Positions 3,321 to 20,509 of a stretch of 64,000 bases of DNA are shown here, one piece after another. The translations under genes were made by a program, and so were the position numbers. The stretch is taken from positions 1 through 64,000 of IMG/VR virus record IMGVR_UViG_3300025168_000047. The stretch is one strand, 5' to 3'. The notes under the pieces were generated by a model that made no database searches, was not told the origin of the DNA, and was given only the letters and a program-made list of their open reading frames with translations. Numbering within the stretch: position 1 is the stretch's first letter; each line of letters starts with the position of its first letter. The stretch comes from a virus.

Positions 3321-3634
3321 TAACAGCAATATTAATAATGTCTTCGGCATTAAACATTTTATTGGTGTGGTATGCGAGAAAATTGCTACAAAAACTAGCA
3401 TATTTCTCCGAAGATATCGAAGATATGAACAATAACATAGAAGGCTTTGCTGTGCATCTAGAAAAGTTGCATAGCTTAGAGACTTACTATGGCGATCAAG
3501 ATTTACAGAACTTAATTGCACATGCCAAAAGCACTGCGCAAGAAATGAGACAATTTAAAGATTTGTATTTAATAGGGGAAACTGAAGAAGGAATTTTAGA
3601 GGATGCCGAGGAAGAAGAGCAAAAAGTCGAATAG
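3317..3634 (+). CDS. small membrane-anchored protein with acidic tail
   Basis: The 105-residue protein has a single hydrophobic segment at its very N-terminus (about residues 2-19, ITAILIMSSALNILLVWYA). A long helical, charged stretch follows, and the protein ends in a run of glutamates (EDAEEEEQ). This is the shape of a bitopic inner-membrane protein with a coiled or helical cytoplasmic or periplasmic part. GAGGAG upstream of the ATG at 3317 is a strong ribosome site. The end overlaps the sigma-factor gene by 32 bases. I do not recognise the family and give no function. Confidence 0.6.
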   Translation: MITAILIMSSALNILLVWYARKLLQKLAYFSEDIEDMNNNIEGFAVHLEKLHSLETYYGDQDLQNLIAHAKSTAQEMRQFKDLYLIGETEEGILEDAEEEEQKVE

Positions 3635-4295
3635 ATATTATTTTACCAAAGATCACGAAGACGCGATTGTAAAATATGCGTCGACAAAAGACCGGGAAGT
3701 AAGAACCAAGCTTTATATAGAATGGATTCAGCCAGCTTTCAGCGAAATGGTGGACAAGATAGTTTATACCTATAAGTTTTCGAACCTGCCAAACATTGAT
3801 CTTTTGAGAGATGATTGCAAAATATGGTTAACTACAATTTTAGACAAGTATGATCCAAACAAAGGATCAAAAGCTTTTTCATATTTTAGTGTCATTACAA
3901 AGAACTGGTTTATTCACAAAGTAAAGAAGAATACTCAACAAAACAGAAGAGAGTTAGATTATGATAACTTGTCCAAGAATGTTGAACAGAATTATTTATC
4001 GACAGATATTCAATATAATGAAGAACGAGAATATGATGAGTTCTGGGAACACCTGTGGTCAGAGATTGAATCTTGGGATACCGGAAAATTAAAGGAAAAC
4101 GAAAAGAAAGTTTTAGAAGCAGTTAAGATAATTTTGAAGAATTCTGACAATATTGAGATTTTTAATAAGAAGGCTGTATATCTTTACCTTCGAGAATTGA
4201 CTGGCTTAAATACAAAGCAAGTTGTTAACTGCTTAAACAAGATGAGAGATAGATATAAAAAATTTAAGGTAGATTGGAACGAAGGAAAATATTAA
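3603..4295 (+). CDS. gp55: T4 gp55-like late-transcription sigma factor
   Basis: The 230-residue basic protein resembles the small sigma factor that T4-related phages use to direct host RNA polymerase to late promoters. The clearest segment, near residues 78-105, reads LDKYDPNKGSKAFSYFSVIT followed by KNWFIHKVKK, as in sigma region 2, where the -10 element is recognised and melted. The N-terminus is lysine-rich. The C-terminal part (TKQVVNCLNKMRDRYKKFK) looks like a helix-turn-helix. In T4 this protein acts with gp33 and the gp45 sliding clamp at TATAAATA promoters; neither partner is evident in the window. The ACTATTTA elements listed here are candidate targets. Divergence from T4 gp55 leaves some uncertainty. 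Confidence 0.75.
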   Translation: MPRKKSKKSNRYYFTKDHEDAIVKYASTKDREVRTKLYIEWIQPAFSEMVDKIVYTYKFSNLPNIDLLRDDCKIWLTTILDKYDPNKGSKAFSYFSVITKNWFIHKVKKNTQQNRRELDYDNLSKNVEQNYLSTDIQYNEEREYDEFWEHLWSEIESWDTGKLKENEKKVLEAVKIILKNSDNIEIFNKKAVYLYLRELTGLNTKQVVNCLNKMRDRYKKFKVDWNEGKY

Positions 4296-4315
4296 CCAAT
4301 CTAATTACTATAGAA

Positions 4316-4603
4316 ATGACTGATTTAGAAAAATATATACAAGAAGCTATTGAGAACATTCACAATGATCGCAAGGTCACCAATGACCTCCTTAAAGACG
4401 TTATGCGTTTGTTAGCTGTCGATGGTACTGCATATGAAAAAGTAGGCGCAATCGCTGCAAAATATGTTGAAACACTGCAAAGATCTAACGAACAGTTAGT
4501 AAAGATTGCAGCTTTGACACAGAAAGCAACAACTAAGTCCGAGGGCCTTTCAACTGCCGACAAAGACGATTTATATGATTTAATCCAAGGCGATAAGGAA
4601 TGA
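4316..4603 (+). CDS. small helical protein next to the late sigma factor
   Basis: A 95-residue, entirely helical-looking protein (MTDLEKYIQEAIENIHNDRK; later KYVETLQRSNEQLVKIAAL). The ATG at 4316 is preferred: an upstream TTG at 4274 in the same frame would add only residues that overlap the sigma gene. No strong SD precedes it. There are no cysteines or membrane segments. Its place directly after the gp55-like gene makes a transcription cofactor such as a gp33 analogue conceivable, and its size before the structural genes would also suit a small packaging or assembly factor. Neither is shown by sequence, so it stays unassigned. Confidence 0.6.
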   Translation: MTDLEKYIQEAIENIHNDRKVTNDLLKDVMRLLAVDGTAYEKVGAIAAKYVETLQRSNEQLVKIAALTQKATTKSEGLSTADKDDLYDLIQGDKE

Positions 4604-4607
4604 ACAA

Positions 4608-6065
4608 GTGGCCGATGAAGAAGAAACTAGCGAATCTGGCACGGCATCAGGAACACAACTTCCTCCCGAGATAGCTCCACTTGGAACTTCTGAAGATCAA
4701 GTAGCAAAAGATGTTCTTGAATCTGAGGATTTCACAAAGAGCATTTTTGAAAAATACGCTTACGGAGATCTGAATCCATGGGTACGATCCGAGACCGGAG
4801 AGTTTCTTGATAAAAGTCATTCTACTTTTCTAGGTTCTCTTGGGATAGGCACCTTAAGCTCAACTAACCAAAATATTTTTGGAAATCAATATATTTTTAA
4901 GGCAGAAGTTTTATACGCTTGGAAAGTGCCGGGGCCAAGTCCACACGGTTTTCTTTCTCTATTTCCAGATATAACAAACGCTGTGCATGTTAAAGCTAGA
5001 ATCCCAGAGTTGCATCAATTACCCCTACCAGCCAACCTGCCGATTGAAAACAATCCTACAGACGTCAAAGCAGATTGGTCAATTATTAATCAATATCCAA
5101 CTTATGTTGCGAAAGATACTCTTGTTTCAGAGTATGGTTTGCCGCAACCGGGCCAAATTATTTATGTAGGTTACGAATGCATCAACCCTTTCCGTGGCGG
5201 TTTGTATTTAGGTCCAATCAATAAGACGCAGGTTTTCATCCCGAACCCCAATACCCCTGCCGAGCCAATGCCGTTTGGAACGCCATCTGGTAGAGTTGGA
5301 GGAGTTCCAATTAACCCAAAACCTCTTGGCTCCAACGAACTTCCAAAATCCTTACAACAGGGAAGATATATTATATTTGGAGACAGTCAGGCTCGCGGAC
5401 AGTTAGGAAAAGCGGTTGAAGAACGTCTGCGAGAATATGGAGTGTCTCCACCAAATGGTTATGTGCGAAAAAATACATCAAGAGTAGGCGCTCAGATTAG
5501 AGAATTTGCACCAATGGGCTCAAAGCGCCTCCGCAAACTGGGAAAGCTAAGATCAACAGGTGTGTATAATGGAGGTCCAGATAATGGAATATCAGGACCA
5601 AATACAATACAAAGATTTTTAGATGACAAAGTTGAGAATATAATTTGGATCGGTGGAGGTAACTCAGCCGGCAACAACAGTTCTACCTACACCGGCGCAA
5701 TGAGAGAGATCATCGAGAACATAAAAAGGACTGCTGGTCCAAATACAAAGATAATTTTAATCGGCCCGCCTAGGCACTTTAGAAGGGATGCCGAAGGCAA
5801 TCAAAAAAGAGCAAATGTCGCGAACTCTTTTGATTCTTTTGCAGCAGCCGACCCACAAATTACATCTTATAACCCATTTGTTCTGTGGTCTGATCAAACC
5901 ACCGCATCCACTGGCGACGGTGTACACCTTTCCCGCAAAGGCGCTCAGACTCTAGTAGATCGGATTATGCCTCCAAGAGCAGAAGAACGAGTCCCAGCCG
6001 GCGCAGGAGCTACTGACCTACCAGCAGATCTCCTTGAGGAAACTTCTGAATCCACCGCTCAATAA
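4608..6065 (+). CDS. baseplate-hub-type protein: OB-like domain fused to SGNH esterase
   Basis: Starts with GTG (4608). Residues about 65-205 form a domain shared with the next two genes: FKAEVLYAWK, VKARIPEL, LPIENN, ADWSIINQYPTY, then PQPGQIIYVGYE and YLGPI. The last segments resemble the OB fold of gp5/VgrG spikes. After a proline-rich linker, residues about 250-455 form an SGNH hydrolase. IIFGDSQARG carries the nucleophile serine, WIGGGNSAG the oxyanion-hole asparagine, and DGVHLSRKGAQ the Asp/His pair, so the catalytic set looks complete. SGNH enzymes include peptidoglycan and polysaccharide O-acetylesterases. The likely role is deacetylation of host wall or surface glycan during entry, from the baseplate (inference). 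The hydrolase is well supported; its substrate is not. Confidence 0.78.
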   Translation: MADEEETSESGTASGTQLPPEIAPLGTSEDQVAKDVLESEDFTKSIFEKYAYGDLNPWVRSETGEFLDKSHSTFLGSLGIGTLSSTNQNIFGNQYIFKAEVLYAWKVPGPSPHGFLSLFPDITNAVHVKARIPELHQLPLPANLPIENNPTDVKADWSIINQYPTYVAKDTLVSEYGLPQPGQIIYVGYECINPFRGGLYLGPINKTQVFIPNPNTPAEPMPFGTPSGRVGGVPINPKPLGSNELPKSLQQGRYIIFGDSQARGQLGKAVEERLREYGVSPPNGYVRKNTSRVGAQIREFAPMGSKRLRKLGKLRSTGVYNGGPDNGISGPNTIQRFLDDKVENIIWIGGGNSAGNNSSTYTGAMREIIENIKRTAGPNTKIILIGPPRHFRRDAEGNQKRANVANSFDSFAAADPQITSYNPFVLWSDQTTASTGDGVHLSRKGAQTLVDRIMPPRAEERVPAGAGATDLPADLLEETSESTAQ

Positions 6066-6091
6066 AACTGATAAAAAACTAATTATTTACT

Positions 6092-7639
6092 GTGTCCACA
6101 TTTCATAAAAAACCCGGAGAACTAAACCCAACAACAAAGGCGTCAACAAAAACCTTTGTCGATCCGCAGCACACCACCTTTTTCGGCCTTGCAAAGCAAC
6201 AATCAATTGATGCCACAAGAGAAAATGTGTTTGAGGGGATGACTAGATTCAAAGCAGTTGTATTATACGCTTGGAAAGAAACTCCTTCAGAAGAAGCCAA
6301 TGCATCAACTCATATGGGTGGTTTAGGCGAATATGAGACGGTATACGTTAAAGCAGCAATCCCAGAGATTGATAAAATGCCCTTTCCTTCAAAGCTCCCC
6401 ATCGCAAACAACAGCCAAGCTGACGCAGATTGGACAATGATTAATCAATATAAAACATACGCAGCTATGGATACATCAATTTCTAATTTAGGTGTTCCTG
6501 CTCCCGGAACAATAGTATATGTTACATTTGAACAAATAAGCGCAGATCATATTGCCGGAGGAATATATATGGGTCCAGTGAATATCGATGATATGCCAAA
6601 CCCCGAGGGACTTTTAGAAACACCCGATGTCAAATGGACTCAAGGAACTACCACTTTGCAAAACTTCGATCTTGATTTAGGAGATATGGACCTTCCGGAA
6701 GTTATAACCTCACCAGAACAGGATATAGCGAGAGCGTTATGGGTGCAACATCAAACCAAACTTATCTTCCCGGGCACAATAGGATTCCCTGCAAGAATGC
6801 TTTTTTCAATACAAGCTTGTGAAAGCGGTGGAAATCCCAATGTAATAAGATTTGAGCCTCATGTTTTTTATGGTTACACGAAAAGTGGTCCAAATTCTTA
6901 TCAAAAAGCAAATCGGACTAGGAATGGAAACAAGATACCCTACCCAATGCCCGTGCCATATCAAGGCGGAGGAAATGTTGCGGGTTTTCAACAGAAAGGT
7001 TACGGATGGGCAGTCCGTCGAGGCAAACTAAAACAAACTAGAGTCTCTTTCAGGGGTGAAGAGACCAATTCAGCCGCATTTCAAAGAGCTTTCGCTCAAG
7101 ATCCAGTCGGAGCTTTGTTTTCAACGAGTTTCGGAGCTTATCAATTTTTAGGAATGTTCTTATTAGCAGGAGCAAACCCAGAAGTAAGAGGGAGTATATA
7201 CAATCACTCAACATGGACAGCGGAGCACGCACAAAAAGCACTTGCACTTTATAAAGAAAACCCAATTAAAGCTAGTGATTATGGTGTGGTGGCTATAATC
7301 AAGGCAAAAGGTCGTGATTTTGTACAAAGAGCGGCCTCTGCGGCCTATGTTCCCGGCGCATTACCTGATTTTGCGTATGTAGCACGTCGATTTAATGGAG
7401 ACACAAGTGCATATTCTAATTTTAGACAAGACAAATCTAAACCATATTCTTCAAAAAGAAAGAAGTGTCCGGATTTAAGAGAGTACGCCGGCCAGAATTT
7501 AAAGAATTTTAGAAATACTTGCGGTGGATACGCCGGCAAGCTTTTTTATAATTGGTTGAAATATCGAGAACTTGAAGGATTGTATGAGAAACAATTAGCT
7601 GCACAACTTGTAAGTTCTACTTATCCGGATTTGGTTTGA
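6092..7639 (+). CDS. baseplate-hub-type protein: OB-like domain fused to N-acetylmuramidase
   Basis: A 515-residue protein read from GTG at 6092; no good SD is visible. Residues about 25-170 repeat the shared N-terminal domain (HTTFFG, FKAVVLYAWK, VKAAIPEI, ADWTMINQYKTYAA, PAPGTIVYVTFE, YMGPV). The C-terminal part, about 225-500, matches the DUF3380/PF11860 N-acetylmuramidase pattern. IQACESGG followed by VIRFEPHVFYGY holds the catalytic glutamate (about E243), FSTSFGAYQFLGM is the central helix, and VARRFNGDTSAYSNF is the typical late motif. Such enzymes cut the MurNAc-GlcNAc bond of peptidoglycan. A domain order of OB-like mount then lysozyme-like enzyme is that of T4 gp5 without its needle. 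It probably acts in the periplasm at infection. Confidence 0.8.
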   Translation: MSTFHKKPGELNPTTKASTKTFVDPQHTTFFGLAKQQSIDATRENVFEGMTRFKAVVLYAWKETPSEEANASTHMGGLGEYETVYVKAAIPEIDKMPFPSKLPIANNSQADADWTMINQYKTYAAMDTSISNLGVPAPGTIVYVTFEQISADHIAGGIYMGPVNIDDMPNPEGLLETPDVKWTQGTTTLQNFDLDLGDMDLPEVITSPEQDIARALWVQHQTKLIFPGTIGFPARMLFSIQACESGGNPNVIRFEPHVFYGYTKSGPNSYQKANRTRNGNKIPYPMPVPYQGGGNVAGFQQKGYGWAVRRGKLKQTRVSFRGEETNSAAFQRAFAQDPVGALFSTSFGAYQFLGMFLLAGANPEVRGSIYNHSTWTAEHAQKALALYKENPIKASDYGVVAIIKAKGRDFVQRAASAAYVPGALPDFAYVARRFNGDTSAYSNFRQDKSKPYSSKRKKCPDLREYAGQNLKNFRNTCGGYAGKLFYNWLKYRELEGLYEKQLAAQLVSSTYPDLV

Positions 7640-7648
7640 GGTTAAAAG

Positions 7649-9226
7649 ATGGCGAAACAAGACGAATTTGACGAAAGACAACCTGCTCCTCCCGATAACG
7701 CTCGTGTTGGTGATGATGTTTCACCTCTTGACCCGGCACAGAGTCAAAGCGAGAGCAGTACACAAGAATATAGCGAAGAAGAGACTTTTCAAACAGAACT
7801 TGATCGAGACCCAGCCTTGAAAAACCCTAGGGGCGAGACTGTTGATGTAAATCTTGTCACCAAGCTTGCCAAAGGCGATTACGTTGATGGGACATTAAAC
7901 CCCATACCTACAAGATCTATAACGCCTTTTACTATCGATCAACACCATACATCTTTTTTAGGAATGGCGAAAAATTTTAGCATGAAACAATATGAAAATA
8001 GTGTTATTAAGAATGCTGGATTTATAAAGGCTATCGTATTATATGCTTGGGAAGAAGAGCAAGGAGACGTTTATAGAGAGGGTCCAACGGGTTTAGAACC
8101 CACAATCAAGACAATTTTGAAAGTAAAAGCGAGAATACCAGAACTTCACGTAACTTTACCCACACCTAGTAGCTTGCCTTTAGCAAATAATCCAAATTTT
8201 GCAGCAGACTGGACAGCTATTAATGCACATCCGACCTTTTTAGCCGCAGATACAAGTATAGCAAAGCTATCAGATGGCGTGCCGCAGCCCGGAGATGTCA
8301 TATATGTTGATTTTGAACACAGATTAACGCAAACTGGGCCAATTTATCTTGGTCCTTTAAGTGTCAACTTTGCATTCAACCTGCCTTCACCACCAGAATT
8401 GATTAAAGAAATACCCACTGAGCTAGATAAACCTTTAGTTCTCGATCCTATCGCGGGTCTAGAGTTTAATATAATTCAAGGCCGACCATTTAGTGGTGGA
8501 AAAATGCCTAGGACCAAAGAAATAGATACGATTGTGATTCATGAAAGCGTAGTAGGAGAGGGTACGGGCGCTGGAAAGGTCGATGGCGGGCGAGATAGAA
8601 CTTACGGTGTATTAGAAAAGAGACAGCTTTCAATTCACTTTACTGTAGGAAAGGATGGCTCAGTGCACCAACACGAAGATCCCGCTAAAGTGGTTACTTT
8701 CCATGGAGGCGGTGGAACAGAAGGTGGAGGAATGAACGGAAGGTCTATTGGCATAGAAATATTGAATAGATGGAAGGCCAGTTCTTCTGAAACAGTCGAC
8801 GGTCGAAAGATAATCCGTGAACCCAGATTTGGTCAAGGTCAAGGAAACTATGTTAATCCTCCACAAGCGCAGCATGAAGCCTGCTACAGATTAATAGCAT
8901 CAATGGTTAAGAAGTTTCCAAAACTAAACATGCAGTTTTTTGGTTCTCGACAGGGAAGCTTCTTTTTTACCAAGTCTCCCGGTCGTGCAACGGGTATAAC
9001 TGCACATGGAAACTATGTGGCTAGAAAGTCTGATGGATTCCCCACTGCAATGTATTGCGCGTGCAGAGCTAGAGGATATAGTGAGCAGGAATCTTACGAA
9101 TATTTAATACAAGCTCTCAATTCAAACTCAAAGACATCAAACTCCGAAGGCACAGTGTCTTATCGACTGCCTCCAATTAAACAGGGAGTCTTTTCTTTAC
9201 CGGACAGTACAGAACCCACTGTATAG
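7649..9226 (+). CDS. baseplate-hub-type protein: OB-like domain fused to Amidase_2 (N-acetylmuramoyl-L-alanine amidase)
   Basis: The third paralogue, 525 residues, with GAGG upstream of its ATG. An acidic N-terminal extension is followed by the shared domain (HTSFLG, IKAIVLYAWEE, VKARIPEL, ADWTAINAHPTF, PQPGDVIYVDFE, YLGPL). Residues about 280-495 form a zinc amidase of the AmiD/T7-lysozyme family. IDTIVIHES carries the first zinc histidine, SIHFTVGKDGSVHQH and VVTFHGGGG the core strands, RSIGIEILN the family strand, and TAHGNYVARKSDG the second histidine and a final acidic ligand. The spacing of that last pair is one residue shorter than in AmiD. The enzyme would cleave the amide between MurNAc and the stem peptide. 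Context argues for a virion enzyme rather than a cytosolic endolysin. Confidence 0.8.
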   Translation: MAKQDEFDERQPAPPDNARVGDDVSPLDPAQSQSESSTQEYSEEETFQTELDRDPALKNPRGETVDVNLVTKLAKGDYVDGTLNPIPTRSITPFTIDQHHTSFLGMAKNFSMKQYENSVIKNAGFIKAIVLYAWEEEQGDVYREGPTGLEPTIKTILKVKARIPELHVTLPTPSSLPLANNPNFAADWTAINAHPTFLAADTSIAKLSDGVPQPGDVIYVDFEHRLTQTGPIYLGPLSVNFAFNLPSPPELIKEIPTELDKPLVLDPIAGLEFNIIQGRPFSGGKMPRTKEIDTIVIHESVVGEGTGAGKVDGGRDRTYGVLEKRQLSIHFTVGKDGSVHQHEDPAKVVTFHGGGGTEGGGMNGRSIGIEILNRWKASSSETVDGRKIIREPRFGQGQGNYVNPPQAQHEACYRLIASMVKKFPKLNMQFFGSRQGSFFFTKSPGRATGITAHGNYVARKSDGFPTAMYCACRARGYSEQESYEYLIQALNSNSKTSNSEGTVSYRLPPIKQGVFSLPDSTEPTV

Positions 9227-9282
9227 AAAGGAACTTAAACAAATTTAACAATTCATGATACTTATAACAGAGAGGAATAATT

Positions 9283-10209
9283 ATGGGTGATAAGAGAAAA
9301 GCGGTCAATTTAAGTGGCTTAAGCGCTCAACAAAATAAAGCATTAAGCAAAATACCCGCTAATAAAAGGGGTGTCGCTAATGAGGGTACTTTTGGAGAGC
9401 CCCGTCCCGAAGCAGTTCCTCACTTTATTCAAACAGAGTCTGAGCATGTTATTTCTAACAAAAACAATTCTTGGATTGTTCTCGGTCGCGACCGTCCTCG
9501 TGGAGTCGCTTCCGGTTACGGCGGCAAGGGCGACACCGGCGCAGCTTGTATTGATCTTTGTGTCGGAAGAATGTCAGCAAACCCTATTACCGACGCATAT
9601 GTTGATCCAAATTTTCGAACCGATGCAGCCCGAATTTATATAAGTCAAAAAACAGATATTGATGAGAACTTTAATTTGACAGAAGGTTCTCTTGGAATGT
9701 CAGAAACAAAGTCTGCAGTCGGAATCAAAGCTGATGGTGTACGCATTGTCGCAAGAGAAGGTATTAAACTAGTTACAACCACAGATTCCTTAAACTCTCA
9801 AGGAGGCCGTGTTAAAAGTATAGGCAACATCGATTTGATCGCTGGAAACAATACAGAATTTTTAGAACCGGCAGTAAAAGGAAAACAGCTAACAAACATG
9901 CTTAGAAAAATGCTTCAACAGATATCTGATTTAACTGAAAACTTAAATGGTTTCCTAGCTTCTCAGATGGCATTTAATTCAGCAATGGGTACGCATTCGC
10001 ACCCAGTTGTTATTACCCCATTTACCCCACCGGTAGCCCTTACTTCTCCCAGCGCAGCCTTAGCTGCGACAACAGCGACAGTTACTCAAGCTTCTAGAAC
10101 TGTTCCATCTCTTTTAGTTGCAAAAGCAAACAAAGTTGGACTTGAGTTCAATTGTCTAAATGAACTGGGTGAGGATTATATTTTAAGCAGGAACGTCAAT
10201 TTAACGTAA
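9283..10209 (+). CDS. spike/needle-like baseplate protein
   Basis: A 308-residue protein preceded by GAGAGGAAT, a good ribosome site. Residues about 100-195 have short alternating beta repeats (ARIYISQKTD, VGIKADGVRIVAREGIKLVT, IGNIDLIAGN), the rhythm of an intertwined trimeric beta-helix. A helical stretch follows (LTNMLRKMLQQISDLTENLN), then GTHSHPVV. An H-x-H pair near the tip binds an iron ion in the spikes of P2 and phi92. A role as the puncturing needle beneath the three OB-domain enzymes is therefore reasonable but inferred. Unlike T4 gp5, no lysozyme domain is fused here; the lytic domains sit in the three genes before it. It could also be a hub component other than the needle. Confidence 0.55.
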   Translation: MGDKRKAVNLSGLSAQQNKALSKIPANKRGVANEGTFGEPRPEAVPHFIQTESEHVISNKNNSWIVLGRDRPRGVASGYGGKGDTGAACIDLCVGRMSANPITDAYVDPNFRTDAARIYISQKTDIDENFNLTEGSLGMSETKSAVGIKADGVRIVAREGIKLVTTTDSLNSQGGRVKSIGNIDLIAGNNTEFLEPAVKGKQLTNMLRKMLQQISDLTENLNGFLASQMAFNSAMGTHSHPVVITPFTPPVALTSPSAALAATTATVTQASRTVPSLLVAKANKVGLEFNCLNELGEDYILSRNVNLT

Positions 10210-10217
10210 TTTAAACA

Positions 10218-13200
10218 ATGTCTTGGATAAACGAGAAAATAAACATCCCTTATATCGATGGTGAATATTACAGCGTTACTGTTGAAGTTGGTCACAAGAA
10301 CAAGTATCCCGGTGATGGAGGTCGAGCCGCAGCTTTAAGAGCCGGCCTTCTTGCCATTGGTGAATATTATGGGAAAGACGTTTCTCGCCTCGTCGGGCCG
10401 GATCCAATGATAAACTCTTTGACCACGGGAATTATCACCCAAGAAGATCTTCATAAAAGAACCAATAAAACAGAACTCTCACGTCGAGGTGTTTTACTGG
10501 TTGGTCCAAAGATCGACCCCCGCCCCCGCCCTAGGACATCTAAGTACAAAGTTGGAGTCTTGAAGGGATTTATAGATCTTCAGTATGATATTTGGCCTGT
10601 CCTTCCATGGTTAGGTTCCGGACAAGATGGACCCTTAGACTTTAGTTTGTTCGAAGGTACATGGGATGAGTATCTTGCATCTGGCATGCCTGAAAAGGCC
10701 CGCGAGAGAATTTCAGAATTAAGGACGACTTTTGTACGCGCCCGGTCACTTCCATCTGATAATAATATTTTTGCAAGTTTTTATTCTGGGAAATACATCG
10801 ACTTTGATACACCAATTCAAGAAGGACTGTATTATCCCGGAAAAGAGTCAGACCACGCTCCTATTATGGTTACAAGACCACCACGCCCGTTTTATGATAA
10901 AGACTACGGCCCGTTATCTGCCGATATGCTTGGGGAAAGAAACACATACAATTATACCGAGCTTAATTATAAAAACTTTGATGAGTTCCACAGGCGCATC
11001 GAGACTCTTAGATTAGTTCTAATCGACTATCAGAATGAGCACGAAGCCCTGACTCAGTATCGTATGGTTTATGCGGGGACAAACATACCTTTTGATCTTA
11101 ATATCGTCGGCGAAGCTTTAGTTGCTCTCCGAGAAGAAATAAAAGATTTTATAAAATTAAACAAAGTTGACCAGACCAAACCATTTACAATCGCACTTAG
11201 ATCTGAAGTTGAATATGACAATCCAGCAAAGACATCGGCAGTTAAAGATTTAATTTCTACTAGAGGTCACATAGCTTACATAAGACTTGGCGACAAACCT
11301 TTGAGAAACGAAGGGAATCCAGAAAAGTGGAATTTTCTTTGGAAAGGGTTTAGAAGAGTCAAAAACGCAGAACAGAATTATAATAGTAACATCGCAAGTA
11401 TCTTAAGCAATTCGAATATGATATTAAACCAGCCCGGGACAGATTATAATTCTGTGTTAAGCAGGGTGTGTTCCGGAACTCCCCCAAAAGCCCCTACTTC
11501 AGGCGAAACAAAACAAAGAATGGGTGTCTTGGCCTTTGTAGAGTTATATTTTCAAGATCAACCGCAAAGAAGAAAGATAAAAATAAAATCTACAAAACAA
11601 GCTTTTGATTTATTTAAGCGCCTAGGTTATGGAGAACCAAAACCAAAGTCAGCAAGAGAAGTTCGTGCCGAAAAAGAATTAACAAAGGACGAGTTTCTCA
11701 AAAGACAGATCGCCAACAGAAATAGAGAGTTTAGCCATCAGGTCGGAGATGTAGTTTTTGCGCAACTACCAGCAAATGTCGATAAGATAAAGAGTTGGGA
11801 TGATATTTGGGGGTATGTGCTAAATCGTGTTAATTTAACAACTTTAGCAACTGAAATTTTAGAATGTGTTGGACTGGGATTGTCAATTGACGATATAGTT
11901 GATAGCCTGTGCGACGGATTTCTTAAACAGATAGGTCAGAATCCTGATCAGATTGATGAAGCTTTCAGAGTTATTGAGAGTACTACTTTCTCTCCCGGGG
12001 GCATATCGGTCGTTTCAGGTGTTCAGATTTCTATTTCTATTCGCGAAAAGATGGCAAATTACATTAATCAAGGTGTAGAAGATCCTTTTTATCAAGCAGT
12101 GATAGAAGAGACTACAATGAACGCTAGCGGAAAGAGATTAGTATGTGAAGCTATCATGACCGGAATCTTCTCACTTGGAGATATACTTTACAAAGCAGCC
12201 TCTTCAGTACCAGATTTAAGTGAAAAAGACCCCCGCCCGGTCATATCAAACTGCCCTCCAACGTTTAGAATACCTGATTCTATCCCTTCTTGGGAAACTT
12301 TTTTGGTTTATATCGCTCAACAGATTGAAGATTATTTATATACAAAAGCAGATTCACTAATATGGATACCTATTAATAGATCGCTACAAGCTATAGTCGA
12401 GGCGTGCGACAACGAAGGGGACTTTGGCAACGTAACTGTCGCAGATGTATTGGCAGAACCAAGAAGCATGGAAGAGAAGTTTAAGGGTACCGGTGTAGAT
12501 TCACGAAACTTCTTGCAAGCTGTTTTGGGCATATTAAGTACAAAAGAGCTTTGCACACTTTTCGACGGAGAACCTTCCCCAACCTTGATGATGACAATTC
12601 GTCGATTCACAGAAACTGAATTTCCAGAATTCTCAAAGATATTTTCTACGAACGATAAGTTAAAAACATTTTTCCAAAGGATTGGCGAAGATTTAGATCT
12701 TTCGGTCTGTGATAGCATCGCAGCTAACCGCCCTCTCCAAGATCTCTGCCGCGACGGAGAGACTAATCGTCAAGCGGCTTTAAGAGAATCTTTATTAGCG
12801 AAAGGTTTATCCGAAGAAGAAGTCAACGAACAACTTGAGCTTGATAAAGATATTAAGAGAGAGCAAATTGCAGATTTAACTTCTTTATTATCATTCGATA
12901 GAGATTCAAATAGAAAGATTGGCGCAGCAGCATTGGGTCTAGGCGAAATATTTGCAAGCTCTGCTATGGCATCAAAACAAACCGGCTATGCAGTCGACGC
13001 TGCCTTTCAGGGAGTTGAAAGTTTGTTTTCGTACGATGTAGCCCAGCTTGTCCCTACGATCTTACAGCAAATTCAAAAATACAGAGATCAAGGTTTAGAA
13101 GTTGATAGGTTGCCAATTGCTGATATTTTAGAGTCTGCCACATCTAACTTTATTACAGTCGGCGGCGGAGGAAAGCATTCATTCTCACTTTGGTCACCGA

Positions 13201-16200
13201 CATTGGGTTTCCAACCCGGAACACTAGATATCGACCCGTCGAGTGATACATTTAATGAATATATTGTAGGTTCGGCAGAAATATCTTATTTAGGACAGCG
13301 AGGAAATGAAGCCCAGCCCGGAGCTACAACAATTAATTATAAACTACTTCCAACACAGAAGATTGAGACCGGCAAAAAAGACAAATATACATTAGCGATA
13401 AAGGCTACCACGCCCACAACGGTGATTGATGCTGTTTATCACGATCCATATTTTGGTGAACAAACCAAAACAAGTGTGAAATATGATCATAATGAGATAT
13501 TCTTATCTGAAATCGGCCCCGAAGGTAACAATCCTGAAATATTAGAGAAATATAACCCTTTCGTCGAACAATATCAAAAAAGCACAGGTCCACAAAAGCC
13601 TTATCAAATGTTTGTATTTGAATCTTTATTTGATTTGGCACTGAAAAGCGAAATAGCGTCCGAAGGCGACACACAGGCTTCACAAGAATTCAACGAAAGC
13701 TTGCAACCTGTCCTTTCTGAGCGTCCATGGACAAACGGACGTAATTTTTCTGTTCTTGATTTTGTGTACGACAAGATATTTGAGCAGTATTTGGAGCAGA
13801 TTTCACAAATTATAGCTTCATCCGAATATTATAACTTAGAAAAACTTCAAGAAATAGATTTTGGGTCTGAGTTCGGATCTAAACTTTTAGGAATGTCCCA
13901 AGTGAAGAATAGTGTTAGCCGCACTTCGCAAGCAAACATGATGAACATAGACTTAGAGGCTTTAGAACCGGGCGAAGCTCCCGACCATCTTGGCAATGCA
14001 CTGTTCGAGGGATCAATTCAGACATTTATAAAATTATATATCGCAGAGCTTACGGTAAAATGCTTATTTGTATTTTCCAAATTTAGATCTGAAGATGTTT
14101 TTTCAGATCCAATAATGGCAGAATTTATTTATAAGCGGGTTGTGGACATATCCTTACCAGATGGAACCAGCCTTTACGATAACTATGTTAGTTTCTTAAA
14201 CAAAATGGAATCAAAACTTAGACTTCGAATGTCAGATTCGACAGACGAGGATATTAATGCAAAAATAAAAGAAGAGATATATGATGGAAATGAAACACCA
14301 AAAGATCTTCTCATCTCAGTTGTAAAAAATATCTTTAAGTCCGGCGGGAAAAATGAAGAAACAAGAGAAGCTTTAGAGAATCTCCTCGATATATCTCTTC
14401 CGAAGATTGAATCTGATATTATCGAAGAAATGAAAAATGAAGGCGAAGATACAGAAACAGCCCCAAAAGAAATCCCAGTGCCATCGGTCGAAACCATTAC
14501 AACTGAATATTCTGATATGAACTTCGACCAAGCTTGGGCAGCCAATCAAAAGAGATTCGAGTATAAAGGGGCATCTAAATTAACTCCTTTAGACACAATC
14601 CCGCCTCTTCCTAGATATCAAAAGTTTTCTCACACTTCAGAGGGTGTTTCGTATTACGATTATAAGGATATTCCAATTTATGATTACGGTCAAGAAACAG
14701 AATCTGGATGGCACCTAAGTGAAGAAGATAAAACAAACTGGAATATTATCACCGGCCCCGGTAAGAGCACGTTGTTAAGAGAACACATCCCATTCGGATT
14801 CCCCGGACAATATGCAGATCTTAGACCTATTGAAATTCCAGCCGGCGTAACCTTGCCTCCCGGTACCGCGTGGGATCCCGGAGATACACAACTCGTTGAT
14901 CTGTCATCTCCTGTTGTACAAGACGTTGCTTTTGTTGGAACGTGGGACGTGGAGATCGTAATGGACAAAGCAAAAGTTCAAGCAGATCTACAGGTTAAAG
15001 CAAATGCCACTGGTGGAGGATTCGACAACCCTTATTATTCAGCCAAAAACAACGAGGCCACACTCAGGGCCTATTTCAGCCGTTTAGTCGATGGCGAAAA
15101 AGCATGGGGTCCAGATTCAACAGGGTTACTCCCAGAGATCTGTAATATTCACAAATCAGTTACCGTCGAACAAGAGATTGTTGGAATGGGTGATACAGAA
15201 TACGCCCAAAAAGTATACGCAGATCCGTCTGAAAACGTTGGCCTTTGGACATTACAGGGATCGGGATTAGAGATTGAGAGTGCACAATTTAGTGTTGCTT
15301 CAAAAAATTGGAGAAATTTATGGGGAAGCTCAATTAAAACGCTCTTCTTGAAAGATGCCGGATATTTTCATGCTGAAAAGTATTTTGAACAAAATTCAGC
15401 TTTGTCAAAAGATATTTACAAGCCCTTTGTTGAGGATCGATTAAAATATGTAGATGTAGAAGACCCTTCAACGTGGTTGGCCAGCAACGGTCTTCCTGAA
15501 GAATATGAATTGGTTGATGGTGTCGCCATAGTTCCTGTTAGATTCGAGATCACTTCTTGGACAGGCGAAGGTGGCGCTCAAGGATCTGGTGTCCCAAATG
15601 GAAAACCAAAGTACAACATTATCTACGAAGAGCGCCCCGGTAAGATACTAAGGCGAACTCTCAAAAAAGGTCTTATACACAACGCGCTTAGCACGACAGT
15701 TCACGGCCCAGTTACAAAAGAAGCTTGGGAGCTTCAAGAGGTTTCCGATTCAAACGACGCTAGCAATTATCCTCTTATCCAGATCCGCCCACCTGTATAT
15801 TGGTATTGGGAAGGAGACTCCGGCGGCTGGTTTGAAACATCTTTTGGCGCAGAGAGAACAGTACCAAAAGTTACATATTTCAGGTTTACAGTTAATGGTT
15901 CAAACTTTCAGCCCAATACTAAAGTTGCTTTAGCTCCTGTTAACGGTGTGGGTCCACAATATCCATTCGAGGTCGAGTATCTATCTGATACGGCTTTGCA
16001 GGTCACAATGCCAATTAGCATTAACAGTGGGAATCAAAGTTATCCGGACAAAGCTGGAGATTATGAATATACACCAAATGCCGGCACAATCGCAGCTAAA
16101 GAAGATGGAAAAGACCTTGTTGATCAAAAAGGCGGCCCGACAGGTCAAATATATAAAATGAATAATATCAAAGTTTTCAATTCATTGTTAGCTTTAGTGG

Positions 16201-18296
16201 TAGAAAATCCGGGCCAAGGCTCTCGTGGTGTCGCACCAATGTATTTTCACACGTACAATAGACCAGAACGCATGTGGAATGAACTTTTTCTCTCGCCATC
16301 AGATTGGGTGAAACAAGGAGAGTCAAACTATAATCCCGACTCCCCACCAGAAGCCCCTCCTCAACAGATATCGTTTGATGAAGATCCTATTGGTGAGAAA
16401 TTCCAAGCATATGCCCTTCCTGTGTATGGTAGTTTAGACAAAGCTTGGGAAGTTGTCGATGTTGCTGATATCTGGGGAAGAGAAATTGAGCAAAAACGTA
16501 TTGTGAATAATAATACAGATGTTAACATCGCCGAGTTGCTCGAATCAGGAAATAGCCCTCCAAACTTTGGCCTCTCGAATCAATCCTCTGCTAAACGAAC
16601 TATAAATTGGTGCGAGCCAAGATTGTTTGAAACAGAAGCTCTCAGAAGCAAATATTCAACAGGTGGTTTTATATTAGAGAAATATATCAAGATAACAGAG
16701 AAAAGCAGCCATGTTTGGCCCAAAGGCCCCTCAAGAAGCGCAATCACAGACCAAGAATATTCTTCATATTCTTATCAGTTCGACAAAAACTCGAAGAGTG
16801 TCATCGGTAACTTTGTTAAGTATGACGATCAGAACTCTCTTGGAGAGGGTGCGATTGCCACATCCCCCGGTAAAGAACACACGCTTTCATATGCTGCTTT
16901 TATTCGACTTTTGATAGAACAAACTCAAGGTTCCACAAATATTTTAGAAGAGGTGCTCGGTATACAATATGATATTTTATCATATGGTTCCGGAACTTCC
17001 ATCGTCGATATTGCACAAGCTGCCCCGGAAGGAAGAATCATTGTTTCTGAAGACGAAGACGATTTAGAAACCTTAGATGAAATAAAAGGCGACACACACT
17101 TATACGCAAATCACAAAACGGTTTGGTCAAGTCTCCAAGAATTTATAGATTATGATAAACAGTTTAATCCGGAAGCCGAATATGATGTTCGACCATATAA
17201 AGAAATTAAGACCGTCTCTTCCGGACTTGGAGTGCCCAAACAGGTTGGATTCGTAGGATTCAAAGTAGTCAGGTTGACAGAAGACCTCTCTTATCTCGCA
17301 GAGTTCGCAACTGAAATAAAAGAAAACCAGAACGTACGAAATTTATTATTTGGTTCTTGGAACGACGTTATTGAAGACGTAAAATATGGATTAAGATTAT
17401 CATATGTGTTCCCAGAGGACGTATATGAAAAATATGGGAAGACTTCTTTCCCCGGAGGAGTCAAGGCAGCCCTCAATACAAGTTTAAATCCATATTCGTC
17501 GATGGACATAAACGAAACCGTAGGGCTATACTCTAATCAAATCGCTGCTTTAAATAAGCAAATTGGCGATCTCGAAAAAGATTATGTTGCATATCTAGGA
17601 GATGAAGATAATCCAATTAGCCAAGCTAAAGCCGAAGCAATTGCACCCGCTCTTGCAGAATTAAAAAAACAACGGGCTGATGTCACTTCCGCAGCACAGG
17701 GTATTATGGAAATACAAAACCCCGGAAATTTCTCAGATGAAAGTAGACCGGTAATATTATATCCCGAGAACTTTTTAACGAACCTTGTTTCCTCGAATAC
17801 TGCAAATGTTATTCAAAGCAAGTCTTTTTTAAATAAAACGCTCCAACTTAAAGAAGCAAATAGCGATGATGGCACAGCGAACATAGCTCCAGAATCTTTA
17901 TACGTGGTGCCAATGGTCACAGTTGAAATCGGACCAAATGACCCCGGCTTCCCAGAACAACTTAAACAGGGAAGCTTTACAGATTTAAGATCTGCATATC
18001 CCACAGTAAAGCCCGATGGCAAAGTACCTTATGGTAAGGGAGTATATGACGCCCTGTACAAGAAACTTAAGAAAAGCAATGATTTCAGACTTCTTTTTGA
18101 ATATGTTTTTCCATCAAAAAGACTGCTAGGGTTGAATACATTATATAATATTTTGAATTTTGATTCGTTCTTTAGCGACAAATCTGCCTTCGACGGCATA
18201 TTTAGCAATACAGAGGATCAAGCTTATAGCATCTTGAAAACAAGTAGAGACGCCCCCGGCGGAAGCTATGACTCCGAAGACGAAGAAGAAGGATAG
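10218..18296 (+). CDS. giant virion protein (2692 aa), probably baseplate-associated
   Basis: I do not recognise the family. The protein starts MSWINEKINIPYIDGEYYSV with no clear SD and runs without interruption for 2692 residues. The first 1500 residues are mixed helical and beta with long acidic helices; a weak IPT/TIG-like beta stretch occurs near residues 1885-1980 (TYFRFTVNGSNFQPNTKVAL). The last 500 residues include a short coiled-coil-like part (LNKQIGDLEKDYVAYLGDE). The tail is acidic: PGGSYDSEDEEEG. No membrane segment or long continuous coiled coil is seen, so it does not look like a tape measure. Between the spike-like gene and gp25/gp6 it is most likely a structural part of the baseplate or hub periphery. 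Confidence 0.6.
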   Translation: MSWINEKINIPYIDGEYYSVTVEVGHKNKYPGDGGRAAALRAGLLAIGEYYGKDVSRLVGPDPMINSLTTGIITQEDLHKRTNKTELSRRGVLLVGPKIDPRPRPRTSKYKVGVLKGFIDLQYDIWPVLPWLGSGQDGPLDFSLFEGTWDEYLASGMPEKARERISELRTTFVRARSLPSDNNIFASFYSGKYIDFDTPIQEGLYYPGKESDHAPIMVTRPPRPFYDKDYGPLSADMLGERNTYNYTELNYKNFDEFHRRIETLRLVLIDYQNEHEALTQYRMVYAGTNIPFDLNIVGEALVALREEIKDFIKLNKVDQTKPFTIALRSEVEYDNPAKTSAVKDLISTRGHIAYIRLGDKPLRNEGNPEKWNFLWKGFRRVKNAEQNYNSNIASILSNSNMILNQPGTDYNSVLSRVCSGTPPKAPTSGETKQRMGVLAFVELYFQDQPQRRKIKIKSTKQAFDLFKRLGYGEPKPKSAREVRAEKELTKDEFLKRQIANRNREFSHQVGDVVFAQLPANVDKIKSWDDIWGYVLNRVNLTTLATEILECVGLGLSIDDIVDSLCDGFLKQIGQNPDQIDEAFRVIESTTFSPGGISVVSGVQISISIREKMANYINQGVEDPFYQAVIEETTMNASGKRLVCEAIMTGIFSLGDILYKAASSVPDLSEKDPRPVISNCPPTFRIPDSIPSWETFLVYIAQQIEDYLYTKADSLIWIPINRSLQAIVEACDNEGDFGNVTVADVLAEPRSMEEKFKGTGVDSRNFLQAVLGILSTKELCTLFDGEPSPTLMMTIRRFTETEFPEFSKIFSTNDKLKTFFQRIGEDLDLSVCDSIAANRPLQDLCRDGETNRQAALRESLLAKGLSEEEVNEQLELDKDIKREQIADLTSLLSFDRDSNRKIGAAALGLGEIFASSAMASKQTGYAVDAAFQGVESLFSYDVAQLVPTILQQIQKYRDQGLEVDRLPIADILESATSNFITVGGGGKHSFSLWSPTLGFQPGTLDIDPSSDTFNEYIVGSAEISYLGQRGNEAQPGATTINYKLLPTQKIETGKKDKYTLAIKATTPTTVIDAVYHDPYFGEQTKTSVKYDHNEIFLSEIGPEGNNPEILEKYNPFVEQYQKSTGPQKPYQMFVFESLFDLALKSEIASEGDTQASQEFNESLQPVLSERPWTNGRNFSVLDFVYDKIFEQYLEQISQIIASSEYYNLEKLQEIDFGSEFGSKLLGMSQVKNSVSRTSQANMMNIDLEALEPGEAPDHLGNALFEGSIQTFIKLYIAELTVKCLFVFSKFRSEDVFSDPIMAEFIYKRVVDISLPDGTSLYDNYVSFLNKMESKLRLRMSDSTDEDINAKIKEEIYDGNETPKDLLISVVKNIFKSGGKNEETREALENLLDISLPKIESDIIEEMKNEGEDTETAPKEIPVPSVETITTEYSDMNFDQAWAANQKRFEYKGASKLTPLDTIPPLPRYQKFSHTSEGVSYYDYKDIPIYDYGQETESGWHLSEEDKTNWNIITGPGKSTLLREHIPFGFPGQYADLRPIEIPAGVTLPPGTAWDPGDTQLVDLSSPVVQDVAFVGTWDVEIVMDKAKVQADLQVKANATGGGFDNPYYSAKNNEATLRAYFSRLVDGEKAWGPDSTGLLPEICNIHKSVTVEQEIVGMGDTEYAQKVYADPSENVGLWTLQGSGLEIESAQFSVASKNWRNLWGSSIKTLFLKDAGYFHAEKYFEQNSALSKDIYKPFVEDRLKYVDVEDPSTWLASNGLPEEYELVDGVAIVPVRFEITSWTGEGGAQGSGVPNGKPKYNIIYEERPGKILRRTLKKGLIHNALSTTVHGPVTKEAWELQEVSDSNDASNYPLIQIRPPVYWYWEGDSGGWFETSFGAERTVPKVTYFRFTVNGSNFQPNTKVALAPVNGVGPQYPFEVEYLSDTALQVTMPISINSGNQSYPDKAGDYEYTPNAGTIAAKEDGKDLVDQKGGPTGQIYKMNNIKVFNSLLALVVENPGQGSRGVAPMYFHTYNRPERMWNELFLSPSDWVKQGESNYNPDSPPEAPPQQISFDEDPIGEKFQAYALPVYGSLDKAWEVVDVADIWGREIEQKRIVNNNTDVNIAELLESGNSPPNFGLSNQSSAKRTINWCEPRLFETEALRSKYSTGGFILEKYIKITEKSSHVWPKGPSRSAITDQEYSSYSYQFDKNSKSVIGNFVKYDDQNSLGEGAIATSPGKEHTLSYAAFIRLLIEQTQGSTNILEEVLGIQYDILSYGSGTSIVDIAQAAPEGRIIVSEDEDDLETLDEIKGDTHLYANHKTVWSSLQEFIDYDKQFNPEAEYDVRPYKEIKTVSSGLGVPKQVGFVGFKVVRLTEDLSYLAEFATEIKENQNVRNLLFGSWNDVIEDVKYGLRLSYVFPEDVYEKYGKTSFPGGVKAALNTSLNPYSSMDINETVGLYSNQIAALNKQIGDLEKDYVAYLGDEDNPISQAKAEAIAPALAELKKQRADVTSAAQGIMEIQNPGNFSDESRPVILYPENFLTNLVSSNTANVIQSKSFLNKTLQLKEANSDDGTANIAPESLYVVPMVTVEIGPNDPGFPEQLKQGSFTDLRSAYPTVKPDGKVPYGKGVYDALYKKLKKSNDFRLLFEYVFPSKRLLGLNTLYNILNFDSFFSDKSAFDGIFSNTEDQAYSILKTSRDAPGGSYDSEDEEEG

Positions 18297-18301
18297 AACA
18301 G

Positions 18302-18688
18302 ATGTCAGGAATTTCACCAAAATTACCCTTAGTAGCAAATTCAGAAGATGGTCACTACGGCCTAACTAAAACTTTTTTAGAAGCAACAAAACAAAACTTC
18401 AAACACCTTCTTTTGACCATCCCGGGCGAGAAAGTATTTGATGTTAACTTTGGCGTCGGATTAAATCAGTTTCTTTTTGAGCAAGATCCATATTTTGTCA
18501 AGGGAGAAATATCAGCGAAGATCCAAGAACAACTTGATCTTTATTTGCCACATGTGTTGTTGCTCGATTTGCAATTTCAAAATCAAGAAAACTTCGACGC
18601 AATAAGCGGCAACTTGTTGAGCCTAAGGTTGATATACAAGCTTCAACCATTTAATCAACAGGATTTCCTTGATATAACTATTGAATAA
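18302..18688 (+). CDS. gp25: gp25-like baseplate wedge protein
   Basis: A 128-residue protein of the GPW/gp25 family. The family hallmark is the segment LLLTIPGEKVFDVNFGVGLN followed by FLFEQDPY, which in T4 gp25 and P2 gpW contributes to the sheath-like platform linking the baseplate wedges to the tail sheath. Length agrees with T4 gp25 (132 residues). The catalytic activity once proposed for gp25 is not expected from this sequence. AAGGA about ten bases upstream serves as ribosome site. It is directly followed by the gp6-like gene, a pairing conserved in contractile injection systems. Confidence 0.88.
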   Translation: MSGISPKLPLVANSEDGHYGLTKTFLEATKQNFKHLLLTIPGEKVFDVNFGVGLNQFLFEQDPYFVKGEISAKIQEQLDLYLPHVLLLDLQFQNQENFDAISGNLLSLRLIYKLQPFNQQDFLDITIE

Positions 18689-18715: not shown

Positions 18716-20509
18716 ATGGTAAAAAAGTTTCCAACAATAAGTTACACTAGTAGAGATTTCAACAGCATAAGAAATGATCTCATCGAGTATGCAAAAAGGT
18801 ATTATCCAGATACCTTTAAAGACTTCAATGAGTCCAGCTTCGGCGCTTTGATGATCGACCAAGTAGCTTACATCGGAGACATAATGTCCTTTTACTTGGA
18901 CTATCAGGCTAATGAATCTTTTTTCACAACAGCAAACGAGTATGACAACGTTGTGAAACTCGCACGACAGGTTGGATATAAAATGTCAGCCCGAGGAGCG
19001 TCATCCGGCGTTGTAACTATGTTTGTGTTAGCACCCGCCAACTCAAACGGAATAGGCCCTGACACAAAGTATCTACCAGTTCTTCTGGCCGGCTCACAGT
19101 TTGCTTCAACATCCGGAGCAACATTCTCTTTAAATCGATCTGTAGATTTTTCAAATCCAGACAACGATGTTGTTGTAGCACAAGTTGACTCAGATAATAC
19201 ACCAACTTTTTATGCAGTTAAGGCAGAAGGAACAGTTACTTCCGGAGAGTTTGTACAAGAGGACGTGACAGTTGGTCAATTTGAAAAATTCCTTTCAACA
19301 GAATTAACAACAAAGAACATCACAGAAGTTGTATCGATAACAGACTCCGAAGGACACGCTTACTTTGAGGTCGACAACTTATCACAAAACACAATTTACA
19401 TCCCAGTTGCAAACCAGAACGATGATCGTTCTAGTGTAGCTTCTGTAATGGTACCTGTTATTGTTCCTCGCCGTTTCGTGGTTGAAAGAGAAAGAGACAG
19501 AACATTCTTACAGTTTGGATATGGATCAGACTCGGAGGTTACGACAGATTCAGTTGCTGACCCAACAGATGTATTAATGGACTTGCATGGCAGAACTCAT
19601 GTTTTAGAAAAATCTTTTGATCCAACAAAGCTCTTATCGACAGACAAATTTGGCATCGCCCCCGAAAACACAGTTTTAAGTGTGGTTACGCGAAGAAATA
19701 CCGCAACTACAGTTAATGCACCCACAAACACTTTAGTTTCATTAGTAAGTCCCAAGTTCCAATTCAGAAATAGGAACTTGTTAGATGAGGATAAAGTAGC
19801 CACAGTTATTGGAAGTCTCGAAATTACGAACGAAGCACCGATCATTGGCGATTCTTCTTTACCAGAGCCCGATGAACTGAAAGCAAGAGTCAAAGCTCAC
19901 TTCGCTTCTCAGAACCGCGCAGTTACTCAACAAGATTATCAAAGTTTGATCTATAATTTACCACCACAATTTGGTAAAATAAAGAGGTGCGCTATCTTTC
20001 AAGACCCTGACTCGTATAGAAGAAACCTTAATGTCTATGTTTTATCTGAGAATACAGACGGAACATTAACTCAAACTCCGGAAACAACAAAGGAGAATTT
20101 GAAAGCATGGCTGGCTAGATATAAGATGATTAACGATACTATAGATATTTTAGACGGCAGAGTGGTTAATTTAGGAGTCACTTTCGAAATTATAGCAGAC
20201 GAAACAGTCGGCAAGTACGAAGTTTTGCAAAGCTGCTATGCTGCATTAAGAAGTTTGGTGACAAACAGAGTATTAAACATGGGCGAATCTTTTTCGATAT
20301 CTAGAATATATAAGATATTAAACAGCGTCTCTGGCGTTATCGATACGGTCGACGTTAGTTTGGTTAACAAGACCGGCGGAGTATACTCAACAACACCATT
20401 TGATATCAATTCAAATTTATCTTCCGATGGCCGCATGTTATATATACCAGACGATCATATCTTAGAAATTAAAAGACCAAGCTCGGACATCCAAGGAGTT
20501 GTGAAATAG
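18716..20509 (+). CDS. gp6: gp6-like (baseplate J) wedge protein
   Basis: The 597-residue product starts KKFPTISYTSRDFNSIRNDL and continues with FNESSFGALMIDQVAYIGDI followed by MSFYLDYQANESFF, the conserved N-terminal signature of T4 gp6/baseplate J proteins. The middle is beta-rich, and the C-terminal part (ESFSISRIYKILNSVSGVID) is also typical. In T4, gp6 dimers build the wedge core and the inner ring of the baseplate together with gp7, gp25 and gp53. Length is close to T4 gp6 (660 residues). AGAGG precedes the ATG. Its stop overlaps the GTG of the next gene by one base, giving close coupling. Confidence 0.88.
   Translation: MVKKFPTISYTSRDFNSIRNDLIEYAKRYYPDTFKDFNESSFGALMIDQVAYIGDIMSFYLDYQANESFFTTANEYDNVVKLARQVGYKMSARGASSGVVTMFVLAPANSNGIGPDTKYLPVLLAGSQFASTSGATFSLNRSVDFSNPDNDVVVAQVDSDNTPTFYAVKAEGTVTSGEFVQEDVTVGQFEKFLSTELTTKNITEVVSITDSEGHAYFEVDNLSQNTIYIPVANQNDDRSSVASVMVPVIVPRRFVVERERDRTFLQFGYGSDSEVTTDSVADPTDVLMDLHGRTHVLEKSFDPTKLLSTDKFGIAPENTVLSVVTRRNTATTVNAPTNTLVSLVSPKFQFRNRNLLDEDKVATVIGSLEITNEAPIIGDSSLPEPDELKARVKAHFASQNRAVTQQDYQSLIYNLPPQFGKIKRCAIFQDPDSYRRNLNVYVLSENTDGTLTQTPETTKENLKAWLARYKMINDTIDILDGRVVNLGVTFEIIADETVGKYEVLQSCYAALRSLVTNRVLNMGESFSISRIYKILNSVSGVIDTVDVSLVNKTGGVYSTTPFDINSNLSSDGRMLYIPDDHILEIKRPSSDIQGVVK

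Follow-up and report, generated by a model that had tools for sequence, protein, structure and literature searches.

A candidate heterotrimeric lytic spike encoded by three paralogous genes of an uncultured phage

Three paralogous proteins and a needle-like neighbor

The window analyzed here, a 64-kb stretch of DNA (positions 1 to 64,000 of IMG/VR record IMGVR_UViG_3300025168_000047, an uncultured virus whose record spans 89,422 bases), carries four consecutive genes, A, B, C and D, that together may encode a lytic tail spike (Table 1). Proteins A, B and C have in common an N-terminal domain of about 170 amino acids with pairwise BLASTP identities of 35–42% (A/B 42%, E 8e-36; A/C 35%, E 3e-30; B/C 40%, E 5e-30). 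Their alignment contains about 50 invariant columns, among which are the motifs listed in an earlier note that had described three consecutive genes with a shared N-terminal domain; with the open reading frames in place, that description is confirmed. The C-terminal parts of the three proteins do not match one another. In a second record, IMGVR_3300030419_007281, orthologues of A, B and C are 80–88% identical and occur in the same order, and the ratio of nonsynonymous to synonymous substitution rates (dN/dS) is 0.06–0.08 for each gene, indicative of purifying selection. The low ratios and the conserved orthologous trio argue that all three genes are kept for their function.

The fold of the shared domain, proposed in the earlier note to be OB-like, was approached through structure prediction and profile comparison. 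A model of moderate quality was computed with AlphaFold2 (AF2) from a shallow alignment of nine sequences, and its five-stranded core has a predicted local distance difference test score (pLDDT) of 70–86. The best PDB matches to this model in Foldseek are uS12-type ribosomal proteins (E about 0.01), which have OB folds, and in BFVD the OB entries of gp5 and VgrG appear lower among the matches (E 0.05–0.3). A family profile of 47 sequences compared with 177,635 PDB sequences returns a phage Gp5 as its best match (E 0.012), aligned in the PGD-V-V-F strand region; a smaller shared-domain profile and a needle profile found no match among solved structures. None of these lines is conclusive alone. 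Jointly they favor, with moderate confidence, a gp5-type OB domain.

The assignment of a different wall enzyme to each C-terminal part is clear for one protein and weaker for the other two. Protein C matches Amidase_2 (PF01510) at 52.4 bits against a Pfam cut-off of 26. Protein B lies at the edge of acceptance, scoring 20.7 bits for Muramidase (PF11860) against a cut-off of 22.3, or 23.2 bits when the frame is summed with its neighbors. Protein A scores 23.3 bits for Lipase_GDSL_2 (PF13472), below the cut-off of 32.9, and contains the GDS, GGGN and DGVH motifs in order; for these reasons it is termed SGNH-like rather than a confirmed member of that family. Other proteins of the lineage that have the shared domain also match its enzyme part (1e-6). 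A wall-cutting domain is thus found in the same chain as the OB-like domain, by weak matches for A and B.

Proteins A, B and C end after the enzyme, and no C-terminal beta-helix needle is found in these chains. The needle-like protein D is instead a separate open reading frame in every complete locus, and it is the only needle gene in the whole of its record, G000. Its family comprises hundreds of viral relatives, whose alignment reveals a conserved beta-rich core followed by a helical region in which an HxH motif (H238, H240) is almost invariant. Position and conservation therefore uphold the earlier reading of D as a needle-like part encoded by the next gene, a reading that the predicted fold, considered below, does not confirm. 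In other phages, HxH motifs at the spike tip reportedly bind iron (Browning 2012, as cited in PMC4576200), and for D an iron-binding spike tip is offered as a lead only. Downstream of D lie relatives of the baseplate wedge proteins gp25 and gp6, the latter matching annotated baseplate wedge proteins across its full length, and the genes thus reside in the baseplate-gene setting of a gp5-type hub.

A single needle relative was detected in bacterial or archaeal genome contigs, on a 6.3-kb contig of an Actinomycetes metagenome-assembled genome (locus L406), possibly phage DNA binned with that genome.

Copy number and enzyme exchange among relatives

Alignments of the late sigma factor encoded upstream of A and of protein D each reached hundreds of IMG/VR contigs. 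After removal of near-copies at 90% needle identity, 204 loci of an uncultured lineage were complete from sigma factor to needle, and their gene order is sigma factor, a gene of about 100 codons, one or more shared-domain genes, and needle. When B, D and the 2692-residue protein encoded after D were used as single queries against viral contigs, or by tblastn against a phage collection, one relative or none was returned, and a single-protein search with another needle returned no relative.

The shared domain occurs once in 165 of these loci, twice in 10, three times in 12 and four times in none. The 17 loci that scored zero include 15 with an open reading frame of the right kind in place, missed by the profile. 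Triplet loci contain no extra partner gene between sigma factor and needle. When whole records were searched, exactly three shared domains were found in G000 and in each of the six other triplet records examined in this way, two in each of four doublet records, and a single one in most of the long (150–210 kb) single-copy records; two records with too-divergent copies gave none, and one gave a spurious second match.

A tree of 221 shared domains resolves eight triplet groups and seven doublet groups, in which the copies of one locus cluster together, mostly with support values of 93–100. We do not claim that the eight triplet groups are strictly independent, because gene conversion within a locus could cluster older copies. 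Eight of these 15 multi-copy groups reach three copies and none of the eight reaches four; on the assumption that gaining a fourth copy is as easy as gaining a third, a rough estimate of (7/15)^8, or about 0.002, is obtained, a figure that serves as an indication only because the groups differ in age and sampling.

The enzyme parts behave differently from the docking domains. None of 41 within-locus pairs of enzyme parts match, compared with 89 of 1337 pairs between loci. Closely related docking domains joined to unrelated enzymes within a locus indicate that the docking part was duplicated and the enzyme exchanged. The Pfam assignments of other triplets illustrate the range of combinations: Amidase_2 and DUF2272 with a third copy that is M15-like by eye (L330), M23 and SGNH flanking an unassigned copy (L068), phosphatase-like, tail lysozyme and VanY (L088), and Amidase_2 and M15 followed by an unassigned copy (L059). 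Single-copy relatives bear wall hydrolases of many families, and in L052 a muramidase and a GDSL esterase follow one shared domain in a single chain, a fusion that places both activities at one site. Conversely, some copies end almost directly behind the shared domain (L176 copy 1, L379 copy 2 and L005 copy 2, together with 11 of the 165 single-copy loci). The retention of an enzyme-less copy is best explained if that copy serves as a structural seat.

Three further observations concern the hub proteins of this lineage. At L005 (8755-10321), a shared domain of 197 amino acids is accompanied by a separate 323-amino-acid open reading frame that is similar to the enzyme part encoded by the gene before it, possibly a split of one hub gene. 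Hub proteins at L061 (10979-12277), L063 (10979-12445), L088 (10979-12310) and L332 (11049-12365) end in domains resembling dual-specificity or tyrosine phosphatases with an HC(x5)R motif, an activity unexpected for a phage spike. The hub protein at L028 (13614-15464) contains an SGNH-like domain and then a C-terminal Hint/intein-like domain (PF14890, PF07591).

Assembly of the candidate hub

These analyses indicate that A, B and C are very likely lytic subunits docked at the hub of a contractile phage tail. The OB-like domain of each would dock at the base of the spike while bearing one wall-cutting enzyme, and D would be the needle, the counterpart of the C-terminal part of the T4 gp5 chain. 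With the enzyme and the needle on different proteins, a spike need not hold the same chain in each of its three OB seats. A single gene would fill all three seats as a homotrimer in most relatives; in this phage one gene would have become three, the likeliest arrangement being a single A, a single B and a single C seated above a D trimer, which would allow esterase-like, glycosidase and amidase enzymes to act at one puncture. Judged as a whole, a gp5-type hub with a separate needle and with seats filled by different enzymes, likely in a 1:1:1 ratio, is the probable explanation, and on balance we favor the heterotrimer as the main form. A copy number of one, two or three but never four, the differing enzymes and the retained enzyme-less copies, all read from sequence, fit a hub with three seats. 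The heterotrimeric spike first suggested in the earlier note is thus partly supported, by the gp5-type locus, the moderately supported OB-like domain, the separate needle-like gene and the pattern of copies and enzymes.

Three other explanations were weighed against the mixed trimer. The catalytic domains of A, B and C are of endolysin types, and the three proteins could act in lysis or be exported enzymes, off the spike, with the common domain binding the wall or a partner. A fixed site by the needle, gp25 and gp6 genes and behind a late sigma gene, seen across hundreds of loci, speaks against this explanation, as do the 11 single-copy loci in which almost nothing follows the shared domain, an arrangement senseless for an endolysin; locus position and enzyme-less copies led us to reject it as very improbable. 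An unlikely explanation, although less so, is a mixed population in which each particle holds a homotrimer of A, B or C, or a random mix, as a bet on host wall type. The OB domains within a locus are close relatives, any combination of which may assemble, and nothing in the sequence fixes their order; yet such a population predicts neither the stop at three copies nor the retention of enzyme-less copies beside enzyme-bearing ones.

Slightly less likely than such a population is a larger or stacked hub with more than one ring, in which each paralogue forms its own trimer or six copies surround the hub, so that a single particle bears all three enzymes but not as a 1:1:1 trimer. Anabaena phage A-1(L) provides a precedent among myophages: its spike is surrounded by a distinct hub ring that bears several wall-cutting domains (PMC10966104). 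In the phage studied here, shared domain and needle are physically separate. Against additional rings, one such gene suffices in most relatives, and triplets have no added partner gene between sigma factor and needle.

Several points nevertheless weigh against the heterotrimer itself. The location in the virion, the trimer, its three seats and the 1:1:1 ratio are all inferred. No Pfam gp5 or VgrG OB match was found among 141 relatives, and the OB call is weak by sequence; hhalign comparison of the shared domain with the corresponding chains of phage isolates was not significant, and AF2 modeling of D from four sequences gave a pLDDT of 43, leaving the needle fold unconfirmed. In the tree, A, B and C do not form a clean single clade, the single copy of L014 falling inside with support near 60, and a permutation test of the enzyme difference was only marginal (P 0.05). 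Finally, the three-copy ceiling rests on eight groups and could be explained by chance or genome economy. We put forward more tentatively the broader proposal that a preferred or obligate 1:1:1 hub arose separately in several branches after the needle split off, with the threefold symmetry of the tail capping the number of copies.

Genomic setting and known counterparts

By sequence, the phage is a member of the T4 superfamily without a close isolate. Terminase, portal and fused SbcD/SbcC genes downstream of the hub locus match T4-superfamily phages, and no isolate portal exceeds 41% identity, the nearest isolates being Flavobacterium phage immuto and Microcystis phage Mel-JY01. The fusion is a single 1050-amino-acid open reading frame (45947-49099) that joins SbcD-like (gp47) and SbcC-like (gp46) parts, and Mel-JY01 has a full-length relative of 1066 amino acids. 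A second giant open reading frame (22110-32870, 3586 amino acids) has weak similarity to large proteins that immuto and LR756508 encode in the corresponding place. Just upstream of the hub locus (1066-2800) lie, by sequence, a sugar-nucleotide epimerase gene with relatives in L003, L004 and L005 and a dehydrogenase-like gene with relatives in L003 and L004. At the locus itself, counterparts in L003, L004 and L005 are 96%, 76% and 55% identical for the sigma factor and 97%, 68% and 46% identical for the 109-amino-acid gene product. The 2692-amino-acid protein has no match in Pfam or PHROG.

Table 1. Features of the candidate hub locus, in window coordinates.
Feature	Position	Strand	Remarks
gp55-like late sigma factor, locus anchor	3603..4295	+	phrog_234 late sigma transcription factor, E 5e-6
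109-amino-acid gene, always between sigma factor and hub gene(s)	4274..4603	+	copies in place in L003, L004 and L005
Protein A, 485 amino acids	4608..6065	+	shared OB-like domain and SGNH/GDSL esterase-like domain
Protein A, shared domain match	4752-5324
Protein A, esterase-like domain	residues ~245-460
Protein B, 515 amino acids	6092..7639	+	shared OB-like domain and DUF3380/PF11860 muramidase domain
Protein B, shared domain match	6110-6607
Protein B, muramidase domain	~6842-7162
Protein C, 525 amino acids	7649..9226	+	shared OB-like domain and Amidase_2 domain
Protein C, shared domain match	7877-8374
Protein C, Amidase_2 domain	~8516-9031
Protein D, 308 amino acids, needle-like	9283..10209	+	beta-rich core, then helical region
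2692-amino-acid protein	10218..18296	+	follows needle gene in window, L003 and L004; relatives in L003 and L004
gp25-like baseplate wedge protein	18302..18688	+	phrog_261 baseplate wedge subunit, E 4e-12
gp6-like baseplate wedge protein	18716..20509	+	phrog_219 baseplate wedge subunit, E 8e-25

Among isolates, immuto (gp116) and Mel-JY01 (WWT39504) encode a protein at the position of A–D, between the sigma factor and gp25/gp6. Unlike A–D, it is one chain without an enzyme, as is also the case in LR756508; in immuto, Mel-JY01 and LR756508 the chain at this locus appears by eye to have an N-terminal OB-like part and a C-terminal beta-rich part. Profile-profile comparisons of the shared domain and the needle with these chains were not significant, and the homology is for that reason limited to position and rough layout.

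T4 gp5 combines an OB domain (residues 1-129), a lysozyme (174-339) and a beta-helix (389-575) in one chain (PMC4576200). Like gp5, proteins A, B and C have an N-terminal domain, here OB-like, followed by a wall-cutting domain, and are encoded in a baseplate locus. They differ in that the needle is a separate gene, the enzymes are not T4-type lysozymes, and three paralogous chains take the place of one; since the separate needle departs from a defining feature of gp5, we call them gp5-like rather than gp5. The hub protein gp15 of phage A-1(L) also delivers several wall-cutting domains at one baseplate center. These domains, however, lie in a single chain that forms a trimer of identical subunits (PMC10966104), and the OB spike of that phage is another protein, gp25.

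Among the open-access papers searched, a set without subscription articles, none describes a phage with a mixed lytic hub. The novelty suggested in the earlier note needs qualifying in view of A-1(L) and of the type VI secretion system (T6SS), in which VgrG heterotrimers with different effector extensions have been described (PMC8668125, PMC10433429). Heterotrimers of evolved VgrGs (V. cholerae VgrG1/2/3; A. dhakensis) were proposed from genetics (PMC8668125) and modeled in reviews. Like A, B and C, these are paralogous spike subunits whose C-terminal effectors differ or are absent: V. cholerae VgrG2 lacks the extension that VgrG1 and VgrG3 possess (PMC8668125), in parallel with the enzyme-less copies of the phage lineage. 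The same study argues that assembly needs effectors rather than VgrG heterogeneity itself. Unlike VgrG, whose chain includes the needle, the phage proteins belong to a tail rather than a secretion system and have their needle encoded separately.

If the heterotrimeric arrangement is correct, a symmetric spike gives up its chemical identity so that one entry hole receives three enzyme activities, and gene copy numbers become a readout of a machine's symmetry. Relatives with one, two and three copies would then form a natural set in which to examine how unlike subunits are sorted, and would supply many new pairs of docking domain and enzyme. Phage hubs would be linked to type VI VgrG heterotrimers, and a long-open T6SS question, whether heterotrimers are required or merely tolerated, would become testable. 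In layout the nearest known counterpart is T4 gp5; in concept it is the T6SS VgrG heterotrimer.
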